A DNA stretch of 64,000 nucleotides from assembly GCA_030272155.1 (NCBI GenBank), contig CP126203.1, positions 2,728,001 through 2,792,000 of the forward strand, given 5' to 3'. This document shows, piece by piece, positions 9,865 to 54,315 of this stretch. Position 1 is the stretch's first letter. Each line of letters begins with the position of its first letter. This DNA is from Tetradesmus obliquus (Eukaryota > Chlorophyta > Chlorophyceae > Sphaeropleales > Scenedesmaceae). The notes under the pieces were generated by a model. It did not search any database. It was given only the letters and a program-made list of their open reading frames with translations, and was not told the origin of the DNA. Position numbers and translations under genes: made by a program.

Positions 9865-11274
9865 ATGGCTCTACTGCTCAACAGACAGGGGTGTCAGCTC
9901 CAGCCAAGGCCTAGGTCCAGTCACAGGCCAAGGATCTTCCTGCAGGCCACCAAAACAACCAGCACAGCCACTTCTTCCCCGATCGCTTACGACTTCTTGA
10001 AGCCAGTAACCTCGGCTGGGCAGGTAAGAAGTGCAGCAACCTCAACAAGTAGCTGCTGCTGTAGCAGGGCAGGACAAACACCTGTCAAACAAAGAGCTCT
10101 GAGATATGCAGACTCTGATCCACATGTCACGAATTATCTTACAGGTTATCATTTGTTGTTGCAGATCAAGGAGCTGAAGGAGGGCATTGCTGCCTTCTAT
10201 GACGAGTCCAGCGGCCTGTGGGAGAATATGTGGGGCGAGCACATGCACCATGGTGGGTACTGCACTGCCAGCCCAGCAGCTCTGCACTGCTAATCACCTG
10301 CTGCTCAGTTTTGGATTTGTTAAAAGCTTTGTAGCAGCGGCCAACGGACATGCAGGCTGCAACGAACGCTTGAACAATAGCATGTGCAGTCAGCATGGCA
10401 ACTGCCACGTGGTAGCCGCGTCATCTTGCAGCAGTTCCTGCAAGCATACTGACAGTTATTGAGTAACATCCGAAAGCTTTGACTACTCATGCAGGTAGAT
10501 TCGGCAGCACAGCAGCAGCAATTCTAGCAGTATGCACAACCACTTGCCACGACCTAATGCCATACCTTGGCACAACAGCCTCACTACAGGGCAGGGAACC
10601 TTGCGCTCCGCATGCTGCACGACTGGCCGCACGGTCTTGCAGTGCATGACTATTTATAGGACTTACAGCCACAGCACAAGTTGATTGATCTCTATCTGCC
10701 TTGCTGTTGGGCTTTTCCTGCAGGCTATTACCCGGCTGGCTCGCCACCCAAGAGCAACCAGCAGGCGCAGATAGACATGATCGAAGAGGTGCTCAGCTGG
10801 GCAGGCGTGACAGCAGCAACCAAGGTGCGGCGCACAAGAGGCAGCAGCGGCAGTAGCAGGCTCCACAGTGATTTGGCGCAGGTTGCACCAGCTGATCAGC
10901 ACAGCAGGGTACAAGCTGTCTAGGACACACGCATACTAGTAGTGCCTGTGCCGGCAAGCAACTTCCCTTCAACGCCGCAACTTACAGCAGGGTACATGCA
11001 GTACGGCAAACTAGGATCGAGTTGCCTGCTCTGAATGTGCGTTTGAGTGCCACAGCTGCTAGTGCCAGCTTACCACTCTGGCGTCCCTCAGCCATCAACG
11101 GCTTGCAGTGACCGCTCGGGCAGAGCCACCGCTAAAGCCTCACCTCATCACTGCTTAAGGTTGTAAGCATAAGAATGCTTGTTACAGTTGGTGTCAAGCA
11201 AACTCATTACTGCTTGCGTGTTACTCTCATCATCACAGTACCTCACGCTGCGCTCCTGCACACACACTCACACA

Positions 11275-11333
<59 letters not shown>

Positions 11334-13789
11334 GCTTTTGTCACCGCAGATGGTGGACATTGGCTGCGGCGTGGGCGGCAGCAGCCGCCACATCTCGCGC
11401 AAGTTCAGCTGCAGCGCGCAGGGCATCACGCTCTCACCCGTGCAAGCCGCGCGCGCGAACGAGCTCTCTGGCCGCCAGGGCCTTGGGGAGTCCTGCAGCT
11501 TCCAAGTTGCTGATGCGCTGCAGCAGCCGTTCCCGGACGCCTCATTTGACTTGGTGTGGTCCATGGAGAGCGGGGAACACATGCCCGACAAGCGCCAGTT
11601 TGTGCACGAGCTCGCGCGCGTGTGCGCGCCGGGCGGCGCCGTTATTATTGTTACGTGGTGCCACAGAATTTTGGGCCCTGGGGAGCAGGGTTTGAAGCCG
11701 GAGGAGGAGTCGCTGCTCGACAGGATCTGTGAGGCGTACTACCTGCCTGCCTGGTGCTCTGTGGAAGACTATCGGCGGCTGTTTGGTGAGCAAAAGCTTT
11801 TGCTCTGTATTAGACACTGCTGGGCTTGAGTTGTTGCAGAAGATTGAGTTCTGGTGGAGATGCCGGCACTGTGGCTGTGTGCGCGCAGTGATGTTTGCCT
11901 TGCGTCCTTGTGTCCTGGTGGGAGTGCACCGGATGTATGCACGCATGTGCATGCTTGCTTGTGGAAAAGCCGGAGGAGGCGTCGCTGCTGGACAGGATCT
12001 GTGAGGCGTACTACCTGCCTGCCTGGTGCTCTGTGGAGGACTACCGGCGGCTGTTTGGTGAGCTGTGTGGTGCTTGTGTTCCTTGAGTGTGATAATGAAG
12101 ATGAAGTCCTGGTGGAGTCCTGGAGGGTCTGGTTTGAGTGTGGCTGTGTACGTCCGGCTTACTCAGGACTACCGGCGGCTGTTTGATGATCAGCAGACAC
12201 TGCAGGGCTTGAGTGGATGTGAAAGCTGGAGTCCTGGTGGAGGTTCATTTACCATTCTGCCTCGCAACCTAGTTGGAGTGCACTGGATGGATGCACGCAT
12301 GCACACGCTTGCTTAATTGCGCAGAGGCGCAGGGCCCAATGGAGATAGGTGGCCGAACAAAGTTCTTTCACATTGAACACATCGCATTGAACATAATGTC
12401 TTTCATTGCATTGCGCGCTGCATGTGCGCATGCCATTTTTAACCGTTTTGCAGAGGCCGAGGGCCTTGCGGACATCACAGTCAGGCTGCTGCATTTGCAA
12501 GGTCACATAACATGTCTTTTTAACATGTCATATAACATGCTGCCACGCTGTGCTTGGCCTTGCCTGTGCAGAGGCTGAGGGCCTGGTGGACACCTCTGTG
12601 GCTAATTAAAGTTGTTCTTCTCTGAACTTTTGATCTCATTTGCTATTTGCACGCCGAGTGTGTCCTTGTTCCTTCCAGAACATTTTCATCAAAGCAAAGC
12701 GTCATCCCATTTGCATGCTGTGCAGAGGCTGAGGGCCTGGTGGACATCAAGGTGGCTGGCCTACGTTGTTTCCCATCAATTTTCTTATCTCCTTTCTCCG
12801 ACCGAGGCTCACTGTGCGCTGTTTGATGCTTCTGCCAATGCTGTGCAGAGGCTGAGGGCCTGGTGGACATCAAGGTGGCTGACTGGTCAAACGAGGTGGC
12901 ACCTTTCTGGGCAGAGGTGAGGCGGCAGAGGCAGCAGCAGCAGCAGCAGCAGAGTGGCACAGCCTACAAGTAGCTGTGCAAGTAGCTGTGCAAGACAGCA
13001 GCCCTGCCAGGAGGATGCGCCACAGATATGCACGGCAGCAGGCTGTTCAGCAACAGCAGCAGATCACCGTGCGCGGAGGTGACTGCACCGCAAGTGTTAT
13101 GCTGTAGTACTGCAACTGAGGGTGTAGCGTACTATGCATACATTCGCTTGCGCATGGATGCTCATGCCTGCCTGCCCGGCTGCGGCTGCCTGCTGCTGCA
13201 GGTGATCAAGAGTGCGATGACCAGCACAGGCATCATGGGGCTGTTCAAGGCAGGCTGGACCACCATCAAGGTGAGGGCAAAAGGGTGCCATTACAAAGCT
13301 CTTGGCTGCAAGGCAGTACCGTAGGGTGTTGTTGGAGGTATTCTATGCGCACTGTTCGTAAATGTGCACACGCGATGACCAGCACAGGCGTCAAGGGGCT
13401 GTTCAAGGCAGGCTGGACCACCAGGTGAGGGCAAAAGGATGCCAATATCAAGCTCTTGGCTGCAAGGCAGTATACTTTCAGGCGTTGCTGGAGCGTTCTA
13501 GGCGTGCTGGTGAGTGAGTTTGCGTGCCTGCGGTGGATTTTGGTTGCTGACATACTTTTCTGATGCATTTGCATGCGTGCAGGGCGCGCTGGTGATGCCG
13601 CTGATGGCCCAGGGCTTTCGCCGATGCTGTGCACCTGACTGCCTCTGGTCAACCTGTTGCATTGTCTCGTATGTTTGCTGCGTGCAGGGTGCGCTGGTGA
13701 TGCCGCTGATGGCCCAGGGCTTCAAGATGGGGCTGGTCAAGTTCAACCTGATCACCGCACGCAAGCCAGCTGCTGCGCAGCAGAACTGA
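9865..13789 (+). CDS. VTE4: Gamma-tocopherol methyltransferase (tocopherol O-methyltransferase)
   Basis: It methylates gamma- to alpha-tocopherol with S-adenosylmethionine in plastids, the last step of vitamin E synthesis. Exons 9865-10023, 10165-10252, 10724-10824, 11350-11785, 12849-12916, 13202-13270 and 13688-13789 keep phase and give 340 aa, close to the plant enzyme. Residues 1-50 look like a transit peptide. Family marks are IAAFYDESSGLWENMWGEHMHHG in the N-terminal part, the SAM-binding VDIGCGVGGSSRHI at about 118-131, ITLSPVQAARA, and SMESGEHMPDK. The C-terminus GALVMPLMAQGFKMGLVKF is typical. (CTG)18 stands before the exon 4 acceptor. Introns 4-6 hold partial copies of exons 4, 5, 6 and 7. 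These are left out of the model because the chosen exons alone give the family-like protein. Confidence 0.96.
11278..11331 (+). repeat. (CTG)18 in front of the VTE4 exon 4 acceptor
   Basis: Eighteen uninterrupted CTG units on the coding strand end 15 nt before the CAG acceptor at 11347-11349. They occupy the place of the polypyrimidine tract. Confidence 0.95.
11966..12195 (+). repeat. Downstream echoes of the VTE4 exon 4 end
   Basis: About 100 nt (11966-12065) repeat the last 90 nt of exon 4 plus its GTGAGC donor. A shorter piece recurs near 12165-12195. In the long copy four codons differ from exon 4: three silently and one Glu to Ala. Confidence 0.9.
12320..12766 (+). repeat. Upstream echoes of the VTE4 exon 5 start (four copies)
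   Basis: The acceptor plus GAGGCTGAGGGCCTGGTGGA motif of exon 5 recurs at about 12448, 12565 and 12717, with a more decayed copy near 12320, all before the exon used in the model at 12849. Each copy keeps its TGCAG acceptor. Confidence 0.88.
13375..13619 (+). repeat. Echoes of VTE4 exon 6 end and exon 7 start
   Basis: 13375-13440 copies the end of exon 6 with its GTGAGG donor, including GACCAGCACAGGCGTCAAGG. 13572-13619 copies the acceptor and start of exon 7 (GCGCTGGTGATGCCGCTGAT). The first lies downstream of its exon, the second upstream of its exon. Confidence 0.9.
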
Positions 13790-16548: not shown

Positions 16549-16579
<31 letters not shown>

Positions 16580-19500
16580 GTCAGGCCAACAAGCAGCTGC
16601 AACAACAGCCGCCGCCGCTGGCAGCGGCAGCAGCAGGCACGCCAGCAAGCGCAAGCAGCAGCAGGCGCAAGCCAAGCTGGGGCTTCAAGCAATGCCGCTG
16701 CAGGCGCTGCTGTCGCTAACTTCAGCGCCGATTGCTGTAGAGTGGGCAGATGCGCAAACGGGTGGCGCATCTCCTTCAGCGCAGGTGGTGCAGGCGGCTG
16801 TGGCAGCGCATGAGAAGTGCAACGACAAAAGCTGCCCTTTCTGCTCTCTTGACCCTGGCTCAGTGCAGCAGGCAGTGCTCGCATTCAAGCAAGCGCTAGA
16901 AGCAGCAATGAAAGGTCAGGGCCCGCTGCCTCTGATCGAGATTGCGCAGGATGCATCCGTCATCTCTGCTGCTGCTGCTGCGATCGCCGGCGGCAGCAGC
17001 CAGAGTCTGCTGACAGCTGGCGCTGCTAGCGGCGGCGCTGCGAGTGGTGCAGCTGCAGACGGCAGCCCGGCATGCAGCAGCAGCAGCAGCAGTGCGAAGC
17101 AGAAGCAGGCGGCAGCCGCAGCAGCAGCCGCCGCGGCCAACAGCCAGCAGCTGTTTGCGCGTGGCGGCTGGATGGAGGTGTTCAGAGGGAAGCTTGGCAA
17201 AGCAGCAGCTAAGCTTGCAGGCCCTGTTGCTGCTGCTCCCGGCAGCAGCAGCAGCGCAGACGGCGACCGCCAGGGTATGACCAGCAGAGATCTGCTTGAG
17301 GTTTTAGGGGTTAGGAGCGCCGGCGGGCTTGCAGGAACGCCGGAGGGGCAGCAGCAGGTGTGCCCTGCTGGGCAGGGCGTGCTGGAAGGGGCTGCAGGGC
17401 AGGAGCTGCAGCTAGCTGGCCTGGTGAGCCGTGTTTCTCTTCTGATATTTAATAGCATTTCTGGCTGCGTTACCTATTGCTGGTATGTTGGTTGAAGATG
17501 CAGGCCAGATGCATGTACTGTGCTCCTTGAAATTTGATTATGCGTGCTGCGCTGCGCGCATAATCAACTGCCTTGTGCAACTGGCACCGTCGCAGCAGGC
17601 CGCAGCAGCATCAGTTCTCATCTTCATCAGCAGTACTGCATGTTTTTCACCTTCCTACATTCTGGTCGCGTGCTTTAGCAAGGACCCCAAAGTCGTCACA
17701 CGTGCATGTTGTGCTGTATCGCTGCCGCTGCCCGTCACCCCTTCTTTCAATCCTTAATCAGTCCCTGCAAGCACCCAGGGACGAGATTTTAGTTGCGTTC
17801 TTCAGCAAAGACCTCAAGTCCTCACAAGCCTCAGACCGTGAGCTGGTACTGGCAGTAGCAGCGCAGGACGCAGCCGCAGTTGCTGCTGCGCTGGCTGCCG
17901 CAAAGCCAGGTGCAGTGAAGCGGCTGGTGGGACCTGGAGGCTTTACGCTGCTGCACATGGCCTGTGGTGACAAGACGCTGTATGCGACGGCACACACTGC
18001 GCTGTCGCTGATGATGGGAGGCTTCTACCACCAGCAGCGGCTGTGGGGCACGCAGGTGGGCATTTGATATGTTTGGCTGCAGCACATGCGGTCAGAGGTG
18101 GCAGCCACTGCGAGGTGCAGCCAGTGCATCTGCCACTGTTGCCAAACCTGCGTTGCTGCTGCTCGCTGCTGCACCACCTTCCTGCATGTGGGATTCTCAA
18201 CTACTAAGGCTGCTGATTGTTCCTGTTGTAGCTCCTGTTGTAAACAGAAAGCATAATCACATGCAAGCAGGCTGATTATCCCTGCTGTTGACTATTCTTG
18301 TGTGTCTGTGTGCTGGCGGCGTGTCCCTTGCGCTATGCAGGGCCCTGGCAGTGCAGAAGTGGTGCAGCTGCTGCTGGACGCCGGCGCTGACGTGCACGCG
18401 CGCACAGCCAGTGATGCATCCACGATGCACATTGCAGCCTGCAGCAACAGCGGCGCCGTGATCCGCGCGCTGGTTAAGGCGGGTGGCAACGCACGCGACA
18501 ACCGGGCCTACAAAGGTGGGTGGCGGCTGGCGCAGGCACAGCAGCAGCAGCAGCAGCTGCTGCTGTGATCAGAAGAGTAGCAGGATGAGCAGGCCGTAAA
18601 GCAGGCAGGCGTAATGTGATGCAGCAGTTCCTGGCATTTGCTAGCATGCCAAACCACCACTGGTCTAATACATGAGCTTGAAATTGTCGTTTGGGCACAC
18701 AAGTCAAGGCAGGCAGCAACGCACGGGACCACCGGGCCTACAAAATTCTTCAATGGCAGGCGGCGCAGCAGCTCTGACAATGCGCTGACTTGCTGTTGTC
18801 TTGCTGTGTTCACTGTCTCATTCATTTTGCTGTGCCTGCATCCCCGTGTTTTTTCAGGCGTGACGCCGCTCACGTGTGCCGCGTACAGCGGTCACTATGA
18901 TGCTGTCAAGGCACTGCTAGAGGCCGGCGGCGCTGGTCACTGTTCTGCTCAACAATGCCTGCCTTGCTTGCTGTCTTGCTCTTTGTTTCCTGTTTCCAGG
19001 GAGGCTTGCGCCGCGAACGGGCCGCACAGCACGAATGGCACTTGCATGCGCTCGCAAATCAACATACAACCCACCGCGTTTCTCTGCTTGCTGGTCTTGC
19101 AGGCGAGACGCCGCTCACGTGTGCCGCGTACTGCGGGCATTATGATGCTGTCAAGGCGCTGCTGGAGGCGGGCGGCGCAGATGTGAATGCGGCGCGCCAG
19201 GACGGCACCACGCCGCTGAACCTGGCCGCGTACGCGGATGCAAAGGTGCGTACAGTGCAGCAGACAGTTCTTTTCGACGATGAATGATGGTGAAATCAAG
19301 TTTGTTCGGTCTTTCTCGCAAATCGTGTCTGTCCTGCGAGCTGTTCCTTCCTGCATGGTCACCATGTCGCTTGGATCAGCCTTGGCACATCTTGCTGCTT
19401 CAGAATTGGCGTCGGCACATGCTGCTGCTCTGAAACTGGTTGCGCCGTGTCGTGCTTCTTTGAGATCGGCCTCCCCGAGTGCTGCTGTTTCAGCCATGTG

Positions 19501-22500
19501 TTCTACTGGCTGTGCTGCCGCTGCCGCTGCTTGCTGTTTGTCCTACGCAGACCGCGCTGCTGCTGCTTGACCACGCACACATTCTGACTGACTTTCTGAG
19601 CTTGTCACAATCAACATGATGCACATGTTCCTTTCGCTGTCACTGCTTGCACCCCTTTCCGCAGACTGCGCTGCTGCTGCTGGACCATGGCGCCAAGCCA
19701 GACAGCAGCACCAGCCGAGCCAGCCCCTTCCCGGTACCCCTGGTCATGTCAGCAGCACGGGGCGATGTGGAGCTGTGCAGCAGACTCATCCAAGCGGGAT
19801 CAGATCCTGATGAGCTGCACCCTACGGAGGGCTTTGCTCCGCTGCATGCTGCTGTTTCGAGCGAGGCGAGCCGGACAGAGGTTATACGGCTGCTGCTCGC
19901 AAGTGGGGCCGACGTGAATCTGCTGCGGAGTGCAAACCCGATATGGAGCCCGCTGATGTATGCGGCTACGAGGGGGTCATTGGAGCACCTGCAGCTGCTG
20001 CTGGGTGAGTTGGGGCTAAAGGGTTGGGCTGCAGGTGTACTGGGTGCAAGCTGTACTGCAAGTTGCACTGTCTGAAACACATATGAGTTGTTGATTACTG
20101 TACTGCCAACTGTACAAGCGTGCACTACATATTGCATCATAGTGTGTGCGGCTATGAGGGGATCATTGGAGCACCTGCAGCTGCTGGGTGAGTTTTGAGT
20201 TCAGGGTTAGGCTGCAGTTGTACCGGAGTGTGCAAGTATCGGCATGTTGTAGTGCATGTTGCACTGCAGGCTGTACTTTTCTGTGCTGCAGGGAGTCGTA
20301 TAGACCCTGGTATTATGATTCTACCCCGCGGCCTCTAGCCGCATACCTGTTTTTCTGCATTCTTATCATTGTGTCTGCTGTGCATTGGGACGTCGATGCT
20401 GCAGCCGCCGGTGCCGATGTGCACCTGCCCGACCCCAACACCGGCAATGCAGCTCAGATGGCCTCTGCCGTCACTCTGTGCGTTATTATGTAACTGACTG
20501 CTGCTGCTGCTTCTACTGCTGCTGCTGCAGCCGCTGGTGCTGACGTGCACCTGGCTGACCCCAACACCGGCAATGCAGCTCAGATGGCTGCCGCTGTGGG
20601 CCACATCGAGGTGGTGGAAAAGCTGGTGGAGGCTGGCTGTGCTTGGCCGCACGGCAAAAAAGCGCACAGCGGCCTGGGGGCCCCAGTGGACGTGGTGGCA
20701 CTGCTGGCGCAGAAAAGCGGCGTGCCGGTGAGTGTTGTGCTTCTCTCTTGTTGTTCCAATATTTTGCATTGGGTTTTACAAGCACACTCTGTGGATATGG
20801 TGGCTGAAGTAAAGTGGAAGAAACTGTGGTGGTTCGTGACAAGGTTAAGGCCTGGCCACATTGAGGTGGTCGAGAAGCTGGTGGAGGCAGGCTGTGCGTG
20901 GCCGCATGGCAAGAAGGCCCACAGCGGCCTGGGCGCGCCTGTTGATGTGGTGGCGCTGCTGGCGCAAAAGAGCGGCGTGCCGGTAAGTCATGTTTGTTTC
21001 TTTTTTGAATCATTTTTGCACGCACTCCATACACACTCTGTGGATGTGGTGACTGGAAAAGCGGAAGAAAGATGGAAAACCAGTGTGATGGTAAGTTATA
21101 AAACTCAGTCCTGGCCACATCGAGGTGGTGGAGAAGCTGGTGGAAGCTGGCTGCGCGTGGCCACACGGCAAGAAAGGCCCACAGCGGCCTGGGGGCCCCA
21201 GTGGACGTGGTGGCACTGCTGGCGCAGAAAAGCGGCGTGCCGGTGAGTGTTGTGCTTCTCTCTTGTTGTTCCAATATTTTGCATTGGGTTTTACAAGCAC
21301 ACTCTGTGGATATGGTGGCTGAAGTAAAGTGGAAGAAACTGTGGTGGTTCGTGACAAGGTTAAGGCCTGGCCACATTGAGGTGGTCGAGAAGCTGGTGGA
21401 GGCAGGCTGTGCGTGGCCGCATGGCAAGAAGGCCCACAGCGGCCTGGGCGCGCCTGTTGATGTGGTGGCGCTGCTGGCGCAAAAGAGCGGCGTGCCGGTA
21501 AGTCATGTTTGTTTCTTTTTTGAATCATTTTTGCACGCACTCCATACACACTCTGTGGATGTGGTGACTGGAAAAGCGGAAGAAAGATGGAAAACCAGTG
21601 TGATGGTAAGTTATAAAACTCAGTCCTGGCCACATCGAGGTGGTGGAGAAGCTGGTGGAAGCTGGCTGCGCGTGGCCACACGGCAAGAAAGGCCCACAGC
21701 GGCCTGGGGGCCCCAGTGGACGTGGTGGCACTGCTGGCGCAGAAAAGCGGCGTGCCGGTGAGTGTTGTGCTTCTCTCTTTCTGTTGCAATATTTTGCATT
21801 GGGATTTACATGCACACTCTATGGACATGGTGGCTGAAAAGCGGAAGAAAGTGTAGTGGTAAGTGACAAGGCTAAGGGCTGGCCACATCGAGGTGGTTGA
21901 GAAGCTGGTGGAGGCTGGCTGTGCGTGGCCGCACGGCAAGAAAGCACACAGCTGCCTGGGGGCCTTGGTGGACGTGGTGGCGCTGCTGGCGCAGAAAAGC
22001 GGCGTGCCGGTAAGTCATGTCTGTTTCTCTATTGAATCATTTTGACACGCAATCCATACGCACTCTGTGGACGTGGTGGCTGGAAAAGCGGAAGAAAGAT
22101 GGAAGACCAGTAAGGTGGTAAGTTATAAGTTATATAACACTCAGGTCTGGCCACATTGAGGTGGTGGAGAAGCTGGTGGAGGCAGGCTGTGCGTGGCCGC
22201 ATGGCAAGAAGGCGCACAGCGGGCTGGGCGCGCCTGTTGATGTGGTGGCGCTGCTGGCGCAAAAGAGTGGCGTGCCGGTGAGTTGCTTGGGCCTGCCGTC
22301 CCGCTTTTTTAGACTGTTTTCCACTTTCGTATACTCGGTGGATGTTGTGGCGCTGCTCACAAAGAGGCGCGTTGGTGTATGACATTGTTGGTCCTGGGCC
22401 GACAATGTCTCTCACCAACGTGCCTTTTTATTGCCGGTGCCGGTGAGTGTCACTCTTTGTGTCAAAGTTTGATTCAAATCTTGTGTCATTCTTTCTATCT

Positions 22501-25500
22501 ATTGTTTGTGGCGCTTTGGGCGCGGTGCCGCTGCTGGCGCGAAGCGCAGCGTGCCGGTCAGCAACATGTGAGGCCTCTCGGGCCACTCCCACTCACATCC
22601 AGCCCCTCTCACTTGCTGACTCTTGTTCTCTCTGCCTCCAGTGCTCAACCTCGTGCTTCACATGTGCTTAACCTGTGCTGTTCTGCTGCGTGCTCCACTA
22701 CGCCACGCAGGCCGAGGAAGTTGTCAAGCGGCTGAAGCGTGCAGAGCGCCGTGGTGCAGACGCGCGCGCCAGCAGTGGCGGCGGCGCACACCACGGCAGC
22801 ACTGCCAGCAACCGCAACAGCAGCAGCAGCAGCACCTACGCCCTCACCGCAGCAGCAGCAGCAGCAGCCTCTGCAACCGCTTCTGATGCAGCCACGAGCG
22901 ACGCAGCAGCAGCCGGCGGCGTCGGCAGCAGCAGCAGCGGCGGCGACGGCGGCGGCAGCCAGGGCAACAGCAGCAACGGCGCGGCCGGCAGCAGCAGCAG
23001 CGGCGGCCAGGGCGCCGGCGGCGGCGGCAGCAGCAGCAGCAGCAGCAGCGGTGCAGCAAATGGCTGTAGCAGCACTGGCGGAGCTAGCGGTGCTGGTGGT
23101 GCTGCTGGCGATCCTGGTGGTAATGGTGGCGGGGGTGGCCGGCAGGGGCCCAATGGCAATGGTAATGGCGGCGGCAGCAGCGGCAGCAAGGCCGAGGGTG
23201 GTGCTGCTGGCACTGCAGCTGCAAAGCAGGCGGCGCCGGCTGCCAAGCGCAAGACCACGCCGCTGCATGAGGCTGCTCAGCGCGAGGAGGTGAGGGGGCC
23301 TTGTGTGTATGTTCAGGGGGTGCCAGGTTGCTGTGTGCAGTTTCAAGGGGTGCCTGCGCCGTGTCTTCATGGATTGGACCGTGCTGGTGCATGATGTGGT
23401 GCAACGGGAGGAAGTGAGGGGAGGGGGGGCATCTGCATGTGCAGGGGTTTCCTGCCTGCATGGCGTGTCGAACAGATCTTGATGAGCTGCTGGTGTTCAG
23501 TTGGGTAGCGAATGTCCAGTGTGTTGCAGCAGTACGCTGCCGACATCGACTGTGTGGACGTCCCTTGCAGGTGAACCTGCTGATCAACATGGTGCTGATC
23601 AACCCATTGCTGTGTCTGCTCTGCAGGGGCTGATTGACGCCGCGCTGCTGCAGCAGTATGCTGCCGATATCGACTGCGTTGATGAGGCGGCCAAGTGGGC
23701 GGCGCTGCACTACGCGGTGGCGGGGCACAAAGCGGCCATGGTCAAGCAGCTGCTGGACGCAGGTGAGGGGCGGCGGCAGCAGCATACATAGGCATTGTGC
23801 TGGCCTTCTGTCTGTCTGTTTGCTATTGTGTACCTTTGAAGTATTGGCGGGTCACAAGGCGCCCATGGTCAAGCAGCTGCTGGACGCGGATCAGGGTTCG
23901 TTTGTGTGGTGTTATTTGTGTGTTGATGAGGCGGCCAAGTGGGTGGCGCTGCACTACGCGGTGGCGAGCCATATGGCTGCCATAATCAAGCAGCTGCTGG
24001 ATGCAGGTGCGGATGAAGGAATTTTTATCATGTGCTGGCTCCTCTATGTGTGGCAGTGTTTGTGTATGTTGTAGCGGTGGCGGGACACAAGGCGGCCATG
24101 GTCAAGCAGCTGCTGGATGCAGGTGAGGGGCGGCGGCAGCAGCGTACAGAGGCATTGTGCTGGCCTTCTGTATGTGCACTATTGTGTAGCTTTGTGGGTT
24201 TGGCGGGTCACAAGGCGGACATGGCCAAGCAGCTGCTGGGCGCGGATTAGGGTTTGTTTGCTGGTCTGGTTTTGTGTCAAAGTGTGGTGTTGGTTTTGTG
24301 TGTGGATGATGGCGGCCAAGTGGGCGGCGCTGCACTACGCTGTGGCAGGGCACAAGGCCGCCATGGTCAAGCAGCTGCTGGATGCGGGTGAGTTTGTGGC
24401 AGCAGATACACAGTTGGTGTGCTGGCCCTTTTGTCTGTATGCTGTTGTTAACGGAGCGATTGCATTTTGCATCTAGTTTGCACACAGCTTCACACAAAGC
24501 CAATTTCTCCCACTGTGCACGTTCGTTACTGCTGCTGCTGCTGCCTGTAGGTGCCTCACCCGACGTTGCAGCACCCGGCGGCATCCGCCCGCTGCACCTG
24601 GCCTGCGTGTTTGCACTGTTAAACGTTTGTGCACGTTGGTTGCTGCTGCTGCCGCTGCCGCAGGCGCCTCGCCCGACGTCGCCGCGCCCGGCGGTATCCG
24701 CCCGCTGCACCTGGCCTGTGCAGGGCCCATCACCAGCGCCTCATCCCGCAGCAAGGTCTGCCTCTCCCACTTCTACGACCAGCAGCAGCTCTGGAAGAAA
24801 GCAGGCCCAGGCAGCTCAGCTATTACAAAGCTGCTGCTGGCGGCTGGCGCAGAGCAGACCAGCCGGACTGCGAGTGGGGCCACGGGGCTACACATTGCTG
24901 CGAATAGCGGCAGCGGGGACGTGGTGGCGGACTTGCTGGAGAGCAGCGAGGATGTCGACCCTGATGACGACGGCGCGTACAACTGTGAGTTCTTTGTGGT
25001 GATAAACCTTTATGTTAAGTTGCTGCTTAGGCAGCTATATAGGTTGTATAGCTAGGCAGCTATACAGCTTGTATAGCTTCAGCTTGCATGTGTTGCGGAT
25101 CAGCCGCACTGCGAGTGGGGCCGCGGGGCTGCACATTGCTGCGAATAGCGGCAGCGGGGACGTGGTGGCGGACTTGCTGGAGAGCAGCCAGGATGTTGAC
25201 CCTGACGATGACGGCGCATACAACTGTGAGTTGTTTGTGGTGTGGTTATAAACTGTTATATTGGATTGCTACTTATGCAGCTATATAGCTGGTATATTCA
25301 GCTTGCATGTGTTGCAGACCAGCAGGACTGCAAGTGGGGCGACTGGGCTGCACATTGCTGCGAATAGCGGCAGCGGGGATGTGGTGGCGGACTTGCTGGA
25401 GAGCAGCGAGGATGTGGACCCTGATGATGACGGCGCGTACAACTGTGAATTATCAGCGGTTGTATGTTGTCTAATGTTGGGTATTGGGGGTGTTTGTAGT

Positions 25501-28500: not shown

Positions 28501-28911
28501 TGAGTGCGACACTGTCATAACGATTCTGACTGATACCAGATGCGATATATGCCCGTTGTTGGATTGTTGGTATGGTAGTTGCTGGTGTTTTGCTGTGAGT
28601 GCATGTTGCTTGGGTCACCTGGAGGCGGTGGTGCGGCTGTGTGTTTGCGGTACGCCGTCAAGTGGATCTGCTAGTTATTGCTGCTCTGTACCTCTGCTGC
28701 TGCTCATGCTGCCTGCCTGCTGCTGCTGCCTGCTGCTGCTGCTGCTGCAGCCGTCACACGTCGAGTGGCGCCTGAAGCTTGCGGAGCAGCGGGGCCGCAA
28801 AGTGCGGGCCAACTCCAGTAATGCACTGCCGCCACCCTCGGGTGCTGCCGGCCTGCTGCTGCGGCGAAGCAGCCCTGTCCGCGCTGCAGACGGGAGCGGC
28901 AGCAAAGGCGG

Positions 28912-28946
<35 letters not shown>

Positions 28947-29553
28947 GCAGCGCAGCTGCTAGCAGGCAGGCGTCGGATGCTGCGGACGGCGGGACTGCTG
29001 CCGCTGCTGCTGCTGCTGCAGCGAATGCGAATGCTGCTGCTGCTGCTGATGTGGTCAGTATAGATGACATTGAGGCTCTAGCTGCAGAGATTGATGCTTT
29101 GGGTGCGGAGCCTGCACCTGCCAGCGCCAACAGCAGCAGCAGCAGCAAGAAGAAGAAAAAGAAGGAGAAAAAGAAAGCCAAGCCTGCTGCTGCTGCCAAG
29201 CAGGGCAGCCGGGGAGGGGCCACAGGCAGTGCCGATGATGGCAGCAGCGATGCGGAAGCATCAACAGCAGCAGCAGCAGCAGCAGCAGATAAGGGCAAGC
29301 TGCGGCGGCAGCAGCAGCAGCAGGACTCTTCTGAGGAAGAGCAGCAGCAGCAGCAGCAGCAGCAGCGCCAGGTGCTGGATCGGCAGCAGCAGCAGGCGCG
29401 GCTAGAGCAGCAGATGCAGGCACGGCTAGAAGAGCAGCAGCTGCAGCAGCAGCGGCAACGGCAGCTGCAGCAGCAGGAGAAGCAGCGCCAGCAGGAGCAG
29501 CTGCAACAGCAGCAACAAGCAGCGGCAGCGGCGGCGGCTAAGCAGCAGCAAGC

Positions 29554-29603
<50 letters not shown>

Positions 29604-30087
29604 CGGCCGCTGCAGTGCTGAAGTCGCCTGTGGCCAATAGCCAGGCTGCAGCAGCAAACAAGCAGGCCTCAGCTGTAGCAGAGCAGCCGCCACAAGCCAT
29701 TGACTCATCACCGAAGCAGCAGCAGCAGCAGCAGCAGCTCGAGGAGGTGCCAATCATCAGCAAGCGGCAGCAGAAGAAGCTGCAGCATCAGGCTATGCTG
29801 AAGCAGCAGAGAGCCCTGGCCGCAGAGCAGGCAGAGAGCGAGGCAGCAGCAGCTGCAGCAGCAGCAGCAGAGGAGCGGCTTGGAGTGGTGCAGCAGGACT
29901 GGCAGCAAGCTGGTAGGAAAGTAAAGAAGCAGCAGCAGCCACCGCAGCAGCAGCAGGTGCAGCAGGCAGTGCAGCACGCTGTTGCGCCGCCGCCGCCGCC
30001 TCCGCAGCAACCCCAGCAGCAGCAGCAGCTGACTATGGCAGAGGTGCTGCAGCATGGGGCTATGACTACGTCCCGATCTGCTGCATC

Positions 30088-30125
<38 letters not shown>

Positions 30126-31788: not shown

Positions 31789-31828
<40 letters not shown>

Positions 31829-39089: not shown

Positions 39090-39908
39090 TCTGCAGGGCA
39101 GCCAGATCCAGGCCACCTTCTGGCGGGAGGCAGCCGAGAAGTACCTGGACGTGCTGCAGGAGGGCAAGGTGGGCGGCTGGGTCATGAGACTGAGGAGCAA
39201 GGGTCTGCTATGAATGCCTATCTGAGCGTACCAATTATCTGTACTACGTGATGATTATAGTGAGGGGTAGTGCAACCTTTCAATGTTAACTATTGCACAA
39301 GGGTCAGGGCTGCAATGCAAGGGCTCATGGGTGTTTCACTGTGCTGGGCGGCAGCAACAACCAGTGGCTCCTGTTCTGTCCTCAATGCGGCTGGCCGGAA
39401 CGCATGCTGTGCTCACCGAACTGGCTTATGGCTATGGCTGACACCACACTTCTGCGGCTGCTTTCCTTGTGTGCTGTGTTTTTGCAACCCCAGGTGTACT
39501 ACTTCAGCAAGTTCCAGGTCAAGGTGGCCAACAAGCAGTACGCCACCGTGCGCAACGACTACGAGCTGCACTTCGACAACAGGTGCGCGGCTTGTGCCTT
39601 TTGTAATGGGCTCATGACACTTTTTGGAACATGCATGTGTTAGGGCTGTGCGAACACTTCATGTTATCAACGATTACGAGCTGCACTTCGACAACAGGTG
39701 CGCGGCCTGCAACTGTTGCAACGCGCAGCTGTTGTGACGCGCAGCTGATGTCATGTCATCTTGTGGTATGAGTCACAGCCAACCCTCAATGCCCAGTTCC
39801 ACCATGCTGCTGCTGCTGTTGTGCTGCTGGACGGAGGTGGAGGCGGCAGCGGACCAGGGCGGCATCCTTCTCAGACATATCAAACATCACATGCATTCTG
39901 ATCTCTCT

Positions 39909-39955: not shown

Positions 39956-40472
39956 AGGACGGAGGTGGAGGAGGCAGCCGACCAGGGCGGCATTGACGGC
40001 GCAGCGCAGGTGGAGCTGGTGCCGCTGGACAAGCTGCCACGCTTTGTGGGACGCAAGGTGGGGACATATTCTTTGATTCCTCGGTTACATTTTGACACTT
40101 CATTGTCATGGCAGCAGCTGTGGAGCTGGGGCGCCAGGCGTGGATGCACTGTTAGGTTGTACCCGACTGGTATCTCGGCTTCTTATTGTCATGGCAGCAG
40201 CGGTGGAGCTGGTGCCACTGGACAAGCTGCCGCGCTTCGTGGGGCGCAAGGTGAGGGCACACTGTCAAACTTCACCACTTGTATTTGAACGTTATGCATT
40301 TTGTGTTTCTTCTGATTTGTTTCCCCATGCATGGTTCTAACTTTATGTATGTTTCATTGCTGTGCATTACGTTTCATGTGTCGCCCTGCCGATGCCTGTT
40401 GACGCGCTGGGCTTGGTCACAAACTACGGGTTTATGGGCACCATCCACAATCTTTTCAACTTGGACACTGAC

Positions 40473-40505: not shown

Positions 40506-40876
40506 GTATCTTGCTTCACATGCCCTGCAGATGCCTGTTGACGTGCTGGGCGTGGTCACGCACTGCGGCCCGCTGGGCACCATCAAGCGCAAGGCGGACA
40601 ACAGCGAGCTGCCGCGCCGCGACGTGACCATCGCAGACAGCAGGTGTGTGCAAATGTGTATGCCTGGGTGCAAGCTGCGAATTTACATTGGCGGCCAGAT
40701 TTTGGCAGCTGTGTTGTTCGCAGTTCTGGCGATTTAGACTTGGTCACAGCGGAAACCAATGGTGTAAAGGCACGCGATGCCTGCATGCTGATAGGAGTCG
40801 AGCTGCAGCACAGGCGTTCAATGATCGACACACTGATCGACACACTGTAAATGATCGACGTCACTGAAGCTGCTGG

Positions 40877-40917: not shown

Positions 40918-43397
40918 ATGTTGCTGCCTGCAGCCGCTGCAGCGTGGTGCTCACGCTGTGGGCGGACCAGGCCAGCCGCGCTGAGCTGGACGGCTGCGAG
41001 GGGCAGCTGCTGCAGGTGGGAGGGGCAAGGCCTCATTTGGTTTCATTAGACCTCACAGTCTATAGCTGCTCTCATGATCCTTGGTAATCAATGCAGTGTG
41101 ACGGCTGCGAGGGCCAGCTGCTGCAGGTGGGGCCGGCAGCGTGCTGTTGGACTGTAATCAGCCTCTTGCATACTTTCTGGCAATGCATGCAGTGTGGCTC
41201 CTTTGTGATGTGTGCTTGATGTCGAGCAGAGCTGGACGGCTGCGAGGGACAGCTGCTGCAGGTGGGCGGTGCAAGACCTCATTGGGTTTTATCAAACACG
41301 CGCAGTTGATAGCTTCTTGCATGATCCCTGGATGCAGTGCGACTCCTTCGTGGTGTATGCCTGATGTAGTCTCCACTTGACGCCTGACTCCTGGTCATGC
41401 TGCCTGGTGGCTTTGCTGTGCTGCTGTTGCTTGTTGTGCTGCAGGTCACGTGTGTGCGCGTAGGCGACTACAACGGCTGCTCACTCAGCGCAGTCACTCG
41501 CAGCCAAGTGAGTCGCGCCAGCAGCATAGCAGCACCACAGTATGCGTACAAGCACACCGCCCGCCAACACTGTGTTCCAATTCTGTTGATGTGCCTTGCT
41601 TGTTACAGTCTATTGCAGCTCTATTGCAGCTTCTTGTGACCGCACATCCATGCACATAACATGCTGCTGTTCCATCCTGTGTCTGCCTGCTCAAAGCCTG
41701 CTTTGCAGCTTGCACGCAAATATATCGACATGCAGCGTGTGCATTGTGCCACAGGTCTCTGTCAACCCGGAGAGTGCAGCAGCAGACGCGCTGCGCAAGT
41801 GGTGGCAGGCGGAGGGCAGCAGCGCGGCGCTCACGCCGCTGGGCCAGGCGTCTGCCGCTGGCGGCGCCGGCGGCGGCCCGCGCAACAACAAGCTGCAGTT
41901 CCTGTCAGACGTCATGGTGAGGGCAAGCGCAATTGTGTGCTTCTGTGTACGTCCTGTCATGTTGTCGTTGGCCTGTTTGATGAACTGGGCTCAGTTTGTG
42001 TGGCTTCATCAGCTGTCATGATAAGGCATGCTGTGTGTGTGGCTGGTGTGCATGGGGCCTTCTGCAGCTGCGTTGATAGCAGTAGATGAAGCCTCCATGC
42101 TTGCTGCTTTGCAATACCCGTGCCTGTTTATCCTTCGGCAGATCCAATAAAGCTCCCCCGTGCCTGCTGCTGCTAACATTCCTCTTCAGGTGGAGGAAGA
42201 CATCCCCTCGCCTGACGCCAAGCCCACCTACCATGACGTGGTGGTCAGCGTGGTGCAGGTGCAGGACTCGCAGACCATGTACTACCTGGCAAACCCGGAG
42301 AACGGCAAGAAAGTGGTGCGTGGCATGCTTGATATACGGTATGCTGTTCTGCAGCGAACGTGGTGCATGACATGTTGAAACAGCCGTGCATGACATGTCT
42401 GCACATGCCATGCCATGGCCGGCTGGTGCAGGGTCTTGCGCGCATGAGATGTACGTTGTCGCTTAGTACGTATGCTGATGCTGTTGTGCTGCTGCTGCTG
42501 CTGCTGTTGCATCCCTGCAGGAGCCGCGTGAGGGGCGCTTCTGGTGCGAGGCGGAATCACGCTACGTGGACGCGGCACAGAACAGGTGGGGTTTGACATT
42601 TGTGCGCTTAATTTGCATTTGCTTCACCGCAGTAATGACGTGTATGCAGCCGGTGCTTTCTGTGCTTTGCTTGCTTGCTGGCATGTGCCCCTTCTGGTGC
42701 GAGGCTGAGTCGCGCTACGTGGACGCAGCACAGAACAGGTGGGGCCACATGCATGTGTACACACACACCCGGGTTGTGCTTGCATTTCGCACAACAGCTG
42801 CACTTTTGGCTGGTAGCTTTGATGCTGCGCTGGCCAGCATGCATGTTCAGGGTGAGCTTTGGTTGACAGCTTTCCTCCTCGCTGTGTGGTTGCCGCCGCA
42901 GGTATGTGCTGACAGCGCGCGTGGCGGACGCGACTCGGGAGACCTACGTCAACATATTCAACGACCAGGGCGTGCAGCTGCTGGGCGCAAGCGCGGACGA
43001 GCTGGCCGCGCAGCGGGGCGCTGACGAGGCGAGCTTTGCTGGCACGCTGGCGGGCGCCAAGTGGAGCGAGTGGCTGATGACGCTGGCGGCGCGCAGCAGG
43101 GAGTACAACGGCGAGCGGCGCATGCGCTACACCGTCGTGCGGGTGAGTGGGGGAGTGCATTGGGGATAGGTCGCTGCATGTAGCTGCGTCACATGCGCTA
43201 CACTGACATGTGGGTGAGGGCGCGGGAATGCACGTAGCTGCGTGTCGTCGCCGTCTGGCACTTCCTATTGCCTGAGAAGATGCGTGTGCCGCATATCGTC
43301 GGCAAGTAAGGGCATGCTGCAAGGTCGCACAATGCGTCGCGCTCTATGAGCAATGCTTCTCTGACCCCTGCCATGCCTGCTTTAACATGGCATCCTA

Positions 43398-43433: not shown

Positions 43434-43521
43434 CACTTGTCTTGCTGTGCTGCAGATGGCTCCGGTGGACTATGCGCAGGAAGGCCACAGGCTGCTGCAG
43501 CTGATCCAGGGCAAGGCATAA
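36601..43521 (+). CDS. RPA1: Replication protein A large subunit (RPA70)
   Basis: It is the single-stranded-DNA binding subunit for replication, repair and recombination in the nucleus. Sixteen exons keep phase: 36601-36669, 37057-37149, 37518-37828, 38100-38256, 38682-38786, 39097-39168, 39494-39582, 39958-40057, 40531-40643, 40934-41015, 41445-41507, 41755-41916, 42190-42315, 42521-42585, 42902-43142 and 43456-43521. They give 637 aa (human 616). An N-terminal OB fold (RDVVKLPNGKFYSCTLTDG) is followed by a flexible linker, DBD-A (WTIKAKLVRKAPPRAF, YYFSKFQVKVANKQY), DBD-B (MPVDVLGVVTHCGPLG, VVLTLWADQA) and DBD-C (TYHDVVVSVVQVQDS, VTLTARVADAT-like, YVNIFNDQGVQLLG). It ends in PVDYAQEGHRLLQLIQGKA. 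The DBD-C zinc ribbon keeps only one of four cysteines. The exon 10 start could also be 40943. Confidence 0.95.
38455..38612 (+). repeat. Two upstream echoes of RPA1 exon 5
   Basis: TGGACCATCAAGGCCAAGCT and the following GGTGCGCAAGGCG recur at about 38458 and 38578 before the exon used at 38682. Both have CAG in front. Confidence 0.92.
39055..39087 (+). repeat. (CTG)11 before the RPA1 exon 6 acceptor
   Basis: Eleven CTG units followed by CCTCTGCAG and exon 6. Confidence 0.95.
39664..40450 (+). repeat. Echoes around RPA1 exons 7, 8 and 9
   Basis: 39664-39704 copies the exon 7 end (GAGCTGCACTTCGACAACAG). 39829-39873 copies the exon 8 start. 40192-40256 copies the exon 8 end with four silent changes and no amino-acid change. 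40389-40450 copies the exon 9 start (GATGCCTGTTGACGCGCTGG), more decayed. Confidence 0.88.
39913..39954 (+). repeat. (CTG)14 ending in the RPA1 exon 8 acceptor
   Basis: Fourteen CTG units run straight into the CAG acceptor at 39955-39957. Confidence 0.97.
41093..41270 (+). repeat. Two downstream echoes of RPA1 exon 10
   Basis: GACGGCTGCGAGGG-CAGCTGCTGCAG followed by GTGGG recurs at about 41100 and 41234 after the exon end at 41015. Confidence 0.92.
42687..42741 (+). repeat. Downstream echo of RPA1 exon 14
   Basis: It repeats FWCEAESRYVDAAQNR with four silent changes and the same GTGGGG donor. Confidence 0.93.
43186..43224 (+). repeat. Short downstream echo of RPA1 exon 15
   Basis: CATGCGCTACACTG-GTGAGG recurs about 65 nt after the exon end. 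Confidence 0.7.
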
Positions 43522-43985
43522 GCCGCAGTGCTGCTGGCTGTGCAGCGCTGCCTGCACAGCTGAGTAGCAGGACCCCACGGTGGTGTGGCGAGCAGCAGTG
43601 GAGGGCTGCTGCTGCAGCTGACCCAGGGCAAGGCGTAAGCTGCTGGCTGTGCAGCGCTGGTTGCACAGCAATCCTGCAGGATTGCGCGATGGTATGGCAA
43701 GCGACAGCGGCGGGCTGCAGCAGCAGCTGATCCAGGGCAAGGCATGAGCCGGCTGCCGCTGAACTGCACAGTGCTGCTGGGGCTTACCAGCAGCACTGCT
43801 GGATTGCGTGATGGTATGGCAAGCAGCAGTGGGGAGCTGCTGCTGCAGCTGATCTTGGGCAAGGCATGAGCCGGCTGCCGTTACAGCTGCACAGCGCCGA
43901 CTCGCCAGCAATTTTGCAGGATTGCGCGATGGTATGGCAACAACAGCGCCGAGCTGCAGCTGCAGCTGATCCAAGGCAAGGCGCT
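43494..43985 (+). repeat. Five-copy array of the RPA1 terminal codons in the 3' UTR
   Basis: CTGCAGCTGATCCAGGGCAA plus the following codons recur at about 43497, 43613, 43726, 43848 and 43964, with a period near 115 bp, separated by related GGATTGCGCGATGGTATGGC-type spacers. The stop context is TAA, TAA, TGA, TGA, then none. The first copy is the real coding end. Confidence 0.92.
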
Positions 43986-49299: not shown

Positions 49300-49304
49300 T
49301 GTAA
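49300..49304 (+). terminator. TGTAA poly(A) signal of the cell-wall protein gene
   Basis: TGTAA lies 204 nt after the stop at 49096. Positional inference. Confidence 0.45.
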
Positions 49305-49578
49305 CGCGGCACTGATCACTTTGGCTTGGTTTTGCTACTTGGGCTGGGTTGTGGCTTGTCAGTGACATGGTGTGCAGCTGACTATGCCTGACTGTGCAGT
49401 GCACTGCATTTGAAGTGCAGTGCAGAGCCGTAACCATGCTTTCCAGTCCAACGGCTGGGTGCTACTGTTATGATGGTCCGCTTTGAGCGGGCTACCTGCG
49501 TGCTGGCTGTATGAAGGGGCGCTGCTGCTCTTTACTTCTGTTACAGAAGAGCATGGCGGCAGCGCTACCTGAACATGT

Positions 49579-49626
<48 letters not shown>

Positions 49627-51582: not shown

Positions 51583-51587
51583 TTACA
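51583..51587 (-). terminator. TGTAA poly(A) signal of the SRPBCC gene
   Basis: TTACA on plus (TGTAA on minus) lies about 120 nt beyond the stop at 51705. Positional inference. Confidence 0.4.
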
Positions 51588-51704
51588 ATGATGATGCCGG
51601 CTGCAGCTTGTCTCCCTGCTTTACTGCTGAGCTGCTGCCAGCCACGCGCAAACAACAGCTGCTGGCAAACCGCACCTCAACCCAATTCCACCATCCTGCA
51701 CAAG

Positions 51705-54315
51705 CTAGGCTGTGACAAATATGCGCTGCTGCTGTGCCGCATTGTCAGCAGCGCTGTCAGCCCCCTGCTGCAGCACACTGAGCTTCTGAGTCAACTTCTG
51801 AACATTAACACAGCTGCGCGGCACTGCATCGGTTGCTTCAGCCACCTGCACACTCACGTCGACATCACTGCAGCTGCCACTCGCATCGCTCTCCCTGCCG
51901 CTGCTGCTGCTGGGGGTGCCAGGACTGTTACTTCCGTTACTGACAGGTGTTACGGTGCCGCTGCTGCTGCTGTCGGCGGCTGCTGCCTCGCGCTCACACT
52001 CCAGGAAGCTCCCGCTGCAGCTGTTACTGTCATTTGTGTTACTTTCCTCGTCAGCATTGCTGTAACACTCAGAGCCGAGCTCCAGCACGTCATCGTCACT
52101 CGCTGCCTCTGACTCAGCATCATCTGAGTCAGCATTGAAGTCATCAACCAGTGCATGGCACTGCACCGCATCTGCTGCTGCTGCTGCTGCTGTGGTGCTG
52201 CTGCTGCTGCTTGAAGACAGCGCCTGCTGCAGTAGTTTGAAGCTGCCGCCTGACAGCTTGCACTCCGCAGAAGCCTGCAGCAGCGCCTGCTTGACGCTGA
52301 CACCCGCGCTCACCTGAAAACAGCACTCACGCACACACGCGAGCAGCACGAGCAACAGCAGCAAGTCCAACTGAGCAACGGCGAGAGACACTGTGCACTC
52401 CAACCAGCTGACCTAGCTAGCTGGCAACACATGCACTGCCAGCCCAGCCCAGGTCAGCTGCTACTTGCAACTTGTTACAAATACAATTTGTAACACAAAT
52501 ATAAAATACATATGACACAAACCCCTGCCGCGCACCTTGCTGGCCACGTAGGCCACCTTGTCCAGCAGCTAGCCGGCAACTCAATTGCCACACAAACACA
52601 GTCAGTTGCTGACCGCAGCCTACCAGTCCAGCCCAGGTGAGCTGTCATTTTCACATGTTTGCTATAAGTTACATAACAACAGTGACCTGCACACCTTGCT
52701 GGCCACGTAGGCCACCTTGTCCAGCAGCTGGCCAGCCTCGCGCCGCACCGCACCCTTCACTGCTTCCATCAGCCCAGGCATAAAGCGCAGCCCAGATGGC
52801 ACACCTGCACATACCACGGCAGATGCAATGCTTCAGATGATGCAATTGACTTTAGATCTCAGACTACCGATTAGCCCTTCACTGCCTCCATAGCCCAGGC
52901 ATGAAGCATAGCCCAGACGGCACACCTGCACACAGCAAAGCAATGACACACATACAGACAGACACGTGAGGTGCTGAAGCAGTTTCCAGAGTGATGCTTG
53001 ACGTCAAAGGCTGCTGATAATGTCACTGGCAGCCATGCGCACCTTTCGGCCACATCTCAAAGGAGTAGGTCACCCTGGTGGCTGGCTGGCCTTCAGGGCC
53101 TGCTGCTGGCAGCTGCTGCAGCTCCCACTGGCCTGTCAGGTGGGACATCAAGTCCTGCATGCAGCAGCAGCAGCAGCGGCAGCGGCAGCGGCAGCGGCAG
53201 CGGCAGCGGCAGCGGCAGCGGCAGCGGCAGCGGCAGCAGCAGGAGCAGCAGCAGCAGCAGTGTCAACAGAGCAGCAACGGCAAGCTGCGAGCTGCGAGGT
53301 GCTCTTCTGCTTACAGACCAGTGAAGCTCGCGCAGCAGCACATCATCAGCACATCATCAGCGGGTGAGCAGAGGGCTAGCTGTCACGCATACTATATCCA
53401 GCAGCAGCAGGTTCACAGCTCATGCTGAGACAATAGCTGCGGCGCAGTTCACTGTGCTGAGCGCCCTGACATACTCTGGACTCTGCTGCACACAGCCTGC
53501 TGCAGCAAGCTCACAACTGCTGGCCATCAAACCTACCGACTGCAGCAGCCGGAAGCTAACGCGCACACACTCCGGGTCGCTTGCGTCGATGTCTTGGTGC
53601 ACGCGCGTGCGCGCGAGCGTCTTCCAGAACAGCACGCGCACTGCTGCTGTGAACACCACCTGCTCATCCCATCTACCAGCGCCATCATCAGCACCATGGC
53701 TGCGGCCCTCCACTCGGAAGATGTCTGCTCCCTCTGAGAAGTGACAAAAATAACACACAATAACATAGTCATGTACAGAAGTGCAGCAGGAGCCGTGTGT
53801 GGCGCAGTGAGTTGTGAGGGAGCTGAGTGCGCAGCTGGCATAGGTGCATCTTTTGCCAATGAGAGGCCTGATAGCAGCTAGCTGCAGCTACCTATGAACA
53901 ACTCTATTTGAACTTCAAAAGCACAGTGTTGGTGCTGCTCTGATTTAGCAGCCGGCATGCTGGCTGAGGCGTTGGTTGGCCTGTGCTTGACAACGTGCAG
54001 AGCATGTGGCCTGCTGCTACTGCTCTGACTGTGCAGCATCAAGGGTGAAGCAATCTGACGTGCACGATCATATTAACAAAATAATTGAAGAGTGTTATCG
54101 TGTCCAGGACGGGGTGCATGCTCTGCCAACGCTTGATCGCCTTCGTGGCTGCAACTCGGCCACACTGCTACCACACAGCAGCGGAACGAAGCTGATGGCT
54201 CACCTGGAAGTGTCAGCAGCTCCCATATCTGGAAAGGAGACAATTGAATGATCCCAAGTGCTGTTGCAGCCACTCGTTTGCTATGTGAAATGCATCGCGC
54301 CTGAATTTCCCACAT
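51705..54315 (-). CDS. SRPBCC/START-like (polyketide cyclase/COQ10-type) protein
   Basis: Exons 53733-53537, 53154-53043, 52804-52695 and 52313-51705 join in phase. A first exon 54315-54204 also fits by phase and gives 379 aa, but its upper part is uncertain: an acceptor TTTCCAG before IWELLTLP suggests another upstream exon, and an alternative start at 54443 (MQALPSWLARSLRS) looks plastid-targeted. The fold is suggested by IWELLTLPEGADIFRVEG, FTAAVRVLFWKTLARTRVHQD, SHLTGQWELQQL, TRVTYSFEMWPKGVP and the C-terminal helix VRREAGQLLDKVAYVASK. SRPBCC proteins bind lipids or other hydrophobic ligands; no ligand can be named. The last 200 residues are Ser/Asp/Glu-rich and probably disordered. Confidence 0.6.
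52530..52935 (-). repeat. Echoes flanking SRPBCC exon 52804-52695
   Basis: On the minus strand, 52575-52530 copies the exon end (GACAAGGTGGCCTACGTGGC and a GTGCGC donor) and lies downstream. 52935-52880 copies its acceptor and start (GTGTGCCGTCTGGGCTATGC) and lies upstream. The polarity is the same as in the plus-strand genes. Confidence 0.88.
53161..53260 (-). repeat. (GCTGCC)n / (CTG)n tract before an SRPBCC acceptor
   Basis: About ten GGCAGC units (plus strand) flanked by CAG units. On the gene's strand this is a GCTGCC/CTG tract ending in CATGCAG directly before exon 53154-53043. Confidence 0.93.

Follow-up and report, generated by a model that had tools for sequence, protein, structure and literature searches.

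The window analysed here is a stretch of 64,000 nucleotides from the chlorophyte Tetradesmus obliquus (C13:2728001-2792000, contig CP126203.1 of assembly GCA_030272155.1, which comprises 104.66 Mb in 17 contigs), with a GC content of 56.5%. It carries a methyltransferase gene, an ankyrin/RING gene, an RPA1 gene and a minus-strand gene, and their introns contain partial copies of the edges of neighbouring exons. We curated 27 exons (6 methyltransferase, 10 ankyrin/RING and 11 RPA1) in predicted gene models; all have AG acceptors, and all but the last methyltransferase exon have GT donors. Spliced without the copies, the RPA1 model matches the family model TIGR00617 over its length (E 1.2e-98; 331.2 bits, cut-off 334.2), which supports this label of the first-pass annotation, and in an alignment of RPA1 exons 1-7 with the best solved RPA chain the only gaps are of 1-2 residues. 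The gene labelled VTE4 has a clear methyltransferase domain (E 1.1e-21), and support for that label reaches no further than methyltransferase. No Pfam match was obtained for the two scanned exons of the minus-strand gene, labelled SRPBCC. A very long open frame at 28463-32236 has glutamine/alanine runs from CAG repeats and a RING finger at its end.

Each curated exon, with 40 bp of flank, was searched against its own flanking introns, and triplet-rich hits were dropped. We identified 48 copies (7 in the methyltransferase, 31 in the ankyrin/RING and 10 in the RPA1 gene), where dinucleotide-shuffled introns would be expected to give 0.2. At least 1 copy was found for 20 of the 27 exons, and 7 had none in their own flanking introns. 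A splice junction is crossed by 44 of the 48 copies, the remaining 4 deriving from exon interiors only. All 44 are polar, with 29 exon ends lying downstream of their exon and 15 exon starts lying upstream, and no copy of the wrong polarity was found in the curated genes. On the minus strand, exon 52695-52804 of the SRPBCC-labelled gene likewise shows polar placement, with a single copy of its start and a single copy of its end. Exon-edge copies with polar placement are thus confirmed, much as the first-pass annotation had described them: about 45 in number, strictly polar and present on both strands.

A self-comparison of the window (E<=1e-6, local pairs being those 60-1000 bp apart) gave 53 local direct repeat pairs and no inverted pair within 1 kb; one dinucleotide shuffle of the window gave neither kind at that threshold. 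Among 36 loci checked beyond the window, only 2 inverted pairs were found, both in sample L030. Over the window and 15 samples, 161 of 232 local pairs touched exons, compared with 101.9 in 300 rotations (SD 10.1, maximum 128). The other 71 pairs, of similar spacing, lie off predicted exons. An annotation-free motif scan was uninformative, CAG being common in the genome. A two-copy tandem repeat with a period of about 174-189 bp lies outside the studied genes, at 8277-8642.

The copies are arranged in a regular way. Wherever an intron contains both kinds (16 introns), end copies precede start copies. Adjacent copies are spaced at a median of 127 bp, with 81 of 161 spacings falling within 100-140 bp and some reaching 200-300 bp, and the spacing has no clear frame preference (remainder 0/1/2 = 58/59/44). 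In the curated genes, introns with copies have a median length of 544 bp (n=14) and those without copies 287.5 bp (n=10), as expected if copies lengthen introns, although long introns also offer more room. In ungapped projection, copy identity is about 80-95% over the last 20 exonic bases and the splice consensus and falls off some 6 bp inside the intron. Copying also extends to the RPA1 coding-sequence end, which recurs four times in the downstream flank, a stop codon being present in three of these copies. The process is therefore not bound to splice sites, and a coding/non-coding edge suffices, so that the splice junction, proposed in the first-pass annotation as the copied edge, proves too narrow a description. 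Coordinates of the copies are collected in Table 1.

Table 1. Exon-edge copies and related features in the window (percentages are identities to the source exon)
Feature	Position	Strand	Remark
Methyltransferase exon 11350-11785, end block and donor	11695-11791	+	source of copies
Copy, end and donor of methyltransferase exon 11350-11785	11967-12063	+	96%, intronic
Second, partial copy, end of methyltransferase exon 11350-11785	12167-12192	+	88%
Copy, acceptor and start of methyltransferase exon 12849-12916	12449-12477	+	90%
Copy, acceptor and start of methyltransferase exon 12849-12916	12564-12603	+	90%
Copy, acceptor and start of methyltransferase exon 12849-12916	12715-12758	+	44/44 identical
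Copy, end and donor of methyltransferase exon 13202-13270	13372-13464	+	90%, 40 bp into intron
Copy, acceptor and start of methyltransferase exon 13688-13789	13568-13617	+	96%
Copy, last bases but one of ankyrin exon 18341-18515	18703-18744	+	86%, counted as interior
Copy, acceptor and start of ankyrin exon 19103-19245	18852-18933	+	90%
Copy, start of ankyrin exon 19665-20004	19546-19573	+	93%
Copy, end and donor of ankyrin exon 19665-20004	20143-20226	+	83%
Copy, acceptor and start of ankyrin exon 20531-20727	20397-20462	+	92%
Six-copy array (units 2-7), last 129 bp and donor of ankyrin exon 20531-20727	20854-22283	+	about 255 bp apart
Weak copy, end of ankyrin exon 20531-20727	22517-22561	+	80%
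Upstream copy, part of ankyrin exon 23627-23762	23522-23558	+	86%, interior
Five copies, end of ankyrin exon 23627-23762	23845-23896, 23919-24012, 24074-24162, 24201-24252, 24299-24424	+	
Copy, acceptor and start of ankyrin exon 24664-24984	24514-24605	+	6/6 exonic differences at third positions
Four copies, end and donor of ankyrin exon 24664-24984	25095-25835	+	starts at 25095, 25314, 25545, 25698
Copies of ankyrin exon 26355-26632	26782-26808, 26805-26895, 26932-27007	+	first interior; other two end and donor
Copy, acceptor and start of ankyrin exon 27393-27510	27251-27301	+	82%
Two copies, acceptor and start of ankyrin exon 28073-28263	27746-27827, 27904-27983	+	
Copies of ankyrin exon 28073-28263	28374-28517, 28609-28639	+	first end and donor; second interior
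Two copies, acceptor and start of RPA1 exon 38682-38786	38453-38504, 38554-38608	+	
Copy, end and donor of RPA1 exon 39494-39582	39668-39709	+	95%
Copy, start of RPA1 exon 39958-40057	39805-39865	+	92%
Copy, end and donor of RPA1 exon 39958-40057	40194-40259	+	86%
Copy, start of RPA1 exon 40531-40643	40383-40445	+	83%
Two copies, end and donor of RPA1 exon 40934-41015	41100-41131, 41223-41292	+	
Copy, end and donor of RPA1 exon 42521-42585	42691-42744	+	93%
Weak copy, end of RPA1 exon 42902-43142	43186-43218	+	82%
Four copies, RPA1 coding-sequence end	43608-43982 (region 43491-43982)	+	3' flank; three with stop codon
Copy, end and donor of exon 52695-52804	52530-52577	-	94%
Copy, acceptor and start of exon 52695-52804	52875-52932	-	90%

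These features bear on whether the copies serve as alternative or decoy exons under selection. Their coding-like divergence, described below, would fit such a role. However, the inner edges of 76 start and 78 end copies carry splice-like sites no more often than random positions nearby, and the splice dinucleotides are kept at about baseline (69/77 and 60/77; P 0.21 and 0.22). Of 67 indels in the exonic parts, 57 break the frame, the spacing keeps no frame, and copies of a coding-sequence end located behind the stop codon could not act as internal exons. On these sequence features, the copies do not resemble functional exons, and we regard selection for such a function as very improbable.

The pattern extends far beyond the window. 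Exons outside it were called blind with our own gene finder, trained first on the curated exons and afterwards on its own predictions. Of the 27 curated exons, the final version recovered 18 exactly and 5 partially and missed 4. Hits on predicted exons and CTG/CAG-rich hits were removed before counting. Across 38 samples from 17 contigs, 123 of 130 junction-spanning copies were polar, comprising 103 of 110 in 30 samples and 20 of 20 in 8 samples drawn later. Samples from contigs C7-C17 had 115 copies for 131 predicted exons (56 start/upstream, 41 end/downstream, 5 of wrong polarity, 2 whole exon and 11 interior), and those from C1-C6 had 12 copies for 129 exons (6 polar, 2 wrong and 4 interior). 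In the 8 later samples, 32 exons yielded 26 copies (20 polar, none wrong, 3 whole and 3 interior). Under the same blind scan, the window gave 31 copies (25 polar, 0 wrong, 2 whole and 4 interior), one of which sits on a false minus-strand exon over RPA1. The longest ladder lies in sample L027 (2584-3974), where one exon end recurs as twelve copies at a period close to 120 bp. A genome-wide process, as first proposed, is borne out in that the copies occur on many contigs, although the distribution is patchy: the six longest contigs had local repeats in 7 of their 20 samples, the other eleven in 16 of 18. Local-repeat density correlated negatively and significantly with contig size when pooled (Spearman -0.51 for 38 samples, -0.60 for 17 contigs); the 8 later samples alone gave no confirmation (-0.36, P 0.39), and the densest of the 38 samples runs counter to the trend (L041, from the large contig C4, with 73.6% of its 4 kb in local repeats). 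The chromosome-size trend is thus a suggestive lead only, perhaps towards recombination rate. A long tandem array in sample L028 (5782-6736), its period near 205 bp, has no contact with any predicted exon.

Order and distribution also bear on a possible assembly artefact, in which two or more diverged haplotypes or strains would have been interleaved, placing a second exon edge and its intron after the first. Consistent with this, the copies resemble another functional allele with many synonymous differences, similarity fades about 6 bp into the intron, the spacers are often without clear similarity, and unit types alternate in an ankyrin array. Joining whole alternative introns, however, predicts a start copy before an end copy, and whole-intron haplotype concatenation was rejected on the opposite order in 16 of 16 introns. 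Arrays reach 12 regular copies, and the pattern is found on many contigs of a 17-contig assembly, yet is absent from some samples. The copies are also decayed, as the frame-breaking indels indicate, although base-level assembly errors could add to these. We therefore consider an artefact of this kind unlikely.

Differences between copies and exons are concentrated at third codon positions. In the curated genes, mismatches at first, second and third positions numbered 32/31/218 (ankyrin 21/19/190, methyltransferase 2/5/8 and RPA1 9/7/20); the samples gave 117/120/305 in C7-C17, 22/25/33 in C1-C6 and 35/38/108 in the 8 later samples. Copies compared with each other gave 161/164/526, a threefold third-position excess to which a seven-unit ankyrin array contributes 28/17/178; as copies share ancestry, these counts are not independent events. 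The pN/pS ratio was 0.08 for ankyrin, 0.27 for RPA1, 0.42 for methyltransferase (from only 15 differences) and 0.35 for other loci, where a neutral copy of a constrained exon should have about 0.5 by our own reasoning. CpG or base composition was rejected as the source of the excess, which persists in CpG, other G/C and A/T sites. Pure gene conversion from exon to copy was rejected as well, as by our reasoning it limits the third-position ratio to about 2, and the ankyrin ratio is about 9.5. Third-position bias between one copy and another, beside introns that often do not align, suggests that much of the divergence arose while the ancestors of the copies were coding, as it seems to have done.

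The seven-unit ankyrin array (20599-22283) allows exon blocks and spacers to be followed separately. A two-unit block of about 514 bp is repeated, so that unit types alternate, and substitutions in units 2-7 fall almost exclusively at third codon positions. Units 2 and 4 are identical in block and spacer. Between units 1 and 3 the spacers are identical (126/126), but the exon blocks show 7 substitutions, each at a third position, and a single inserted base, all of them confined to a 46-bp patch. Units 3 and 5, in turn, are identical in the exon block and diverge by 11% in the spacer. Exon blocks in this array thus seem to have been exchanged independently of spacers. In the methyltransferase gene, the copy at 12715-12758 and the block of exon 12849-12916 are separated by a 79-bp spacer without clear similarity. 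In all, 75 of 237 pairs were contiguous, and only 3 of 34 at >=93% identity.

Plain neutral tandem duplication without exchange, in which the exon part looks better kept because the exon itself is constrained, accounts for the polarity, the spacing and the ladders. It also fits the methyltransferase pN/pS, which lies near the expected value on its few differences, and L020 and some other samples, which have no third-position excess. It does not account for the pN/pS values of ankyrin, RPA1 and the other loci, nor for the copy-versus-copy excess, where both sides are non-coding. High-identity blocks that adjoin spacers without clear similarity and the patch between ankyrin units 1 and 3 are further points against it; non-contiguity together with little spacer similarity is not predicted by plain tandem duplication. 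Plain duplication on its own thus appears rather improbable. The serial tandem duplication of the first-pass annotation holds as far as local duplication across junctions with the original junctions kept, in agreement with the RPA1 family and structure matches, and fails where it would leave divergence to neutral decay.

The same blocks of high identity around mostly dissimilar spacers resemble long target-site duplications and would suit insertion at exon edges of a mobile or intron-making element, either an introner or one that leaves long target-site duplications. In a genome search with 11 spacers, which skipped very common words and scored only the best candidates, 9 matched their own locus only and the other two, which contain CTG runs, matched simple repeats elsewhere. 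Multi-unit arrays, in addition, have related spacers. On the 11 spacers searched, insertion of elements is a highly unlikely origin.

We infer that the best explanation, and probably the correct one, is short local tandem duplication filtered by its effect on the protein, followed by exchange of exon blocks with diverged alleles. Short local tandem duplications would arise often, half of them leaving 100-140 bp between copies and some 200-300 bp. A duplication lying wholly inside an exon would alter the protein and presumably be lost, while one across an exon/intron edge or a stop codon would do no harm provided that the original, outer edge remained in use, and would be kept. Duplications retained in this way would lengthen the intron or flank, and repetition would produce ladders and arrays. 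The polarity, which had been read as a separate clue to mechanism, follows from tandem duplication and the need to keep the protein; the filter alone suffices. The exon part of an array would then undergo exchange, through gene conversion or crossing-over, with other alleles of that exon that have diverged, and as the introns of such alleles no longer align, exchange would be restricted to the exon block. Allelic exchange is invoked because an incoming block with synonymous differences only is what another functional allele supplies, and, confined to exons, it would explain matching exons, non-matching spacers and mostly synonymous differences. Duplication is the likely birth event of the copies on their sequence arrangement, and exchange, the signs of which are uneven between genes, would be the weaker of the two steps.

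Several observations weigh against duplication followed by allelic exchange. The third-position excess is uneven: ankyrin, L024 and L027 show it strongly, L023, L025 and the C1-C6 samples weakly, and L020 not at all. To account for the ankyrin copies, alleles would have to differ at as many as 17 of 43 third positions, an extreme figure within a single species. When RPA1 and the ankyrin exon were searched against the genome, no further locus was detected, a result that also rejects paralogues as the source of copies. At >=93% identity, 31 of 34 pairs are non-contiguous, a few of these being distant units of one array, and among 60 gapped pairs at >=90% identity spacer similarity reached z>4 in 13 and z>3 in 20. 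Assembly polishing errors could also yield the patch between units 1 and 3. Outside the window, 7 of 130 junction-spanning copies have the wrong polarity, three of them on one predicted L020 exon, and exon calls may err.

Tandem duplication is an established source of introns (PMC3443670, PMC4974935). In the model of Hellsten et al. (review PMC3443670), intragenic duplication is tolerated, as here, since splicing removes the extra part; there, duplication of an exonic AGGT creates a new intron, whereas here it is existing introns that grow, with the original junctions apparently retained and nothing to imply a new intron. The potato RdRp gene (PMC4974935) shares with our loci a tandem duplication over an intron-exon boundary in which the exonic piece of the upstream copy turns intronic. 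It is a single case with a new intron, in contrast to 7, 31 and 10 copies on both exon sides without new introns. Dual-specific splice sites, such as those of UBC, also bound repeat units (PMC10809524), but those units are coding and variably spliced, whereas copies here are partial, often out of frame and without an excess of inner splice sites. What sets the present pattern apart from known tandem-duplication introns is its density, its polarity on both sides of exons, the stop-codon case and the synonymous record. We found no description of such genome-wide exon-edge copying in the literature searched, with most subscription papers outside the search. Minisatellites are regular tandem repeat arrays, and some arrays here are likewise regular, with units about 121 bp apart in L027 and about 255 bp apart in the window. 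Unlike in minisatellites, most high-identity pairs here are split by a non-aligning spacer, and pairs are enriched at exons.

Introns of Tetradesmus obliquus are long, with a mean of 462 bp, and coding sequence makes up only 15.7% (PMC5966456). Edge copying offers a concrete, countable process for intron growth in this long-intron lineage. It can also mislead gene finders, as our own called several copies as exons. It is possible, though we hold it doubtful, that introns serve as an archive of exon alleles, with edge duplications and exon-only recombination trapping diverged alleles as non-coding copies; if so, a single haploid genome would store the synonymous diversity of the past, one exon at a time, and intron growth throughout the genome would be driven by the same process. 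The copies are in any case a molecular fossil record beside many exons, usable for the study of neutral decay, synonymous history and recombination. They sit nearly always where the protein is unaffected, and in this way the introns expand while preserving a fossil record of the genes they belong to.

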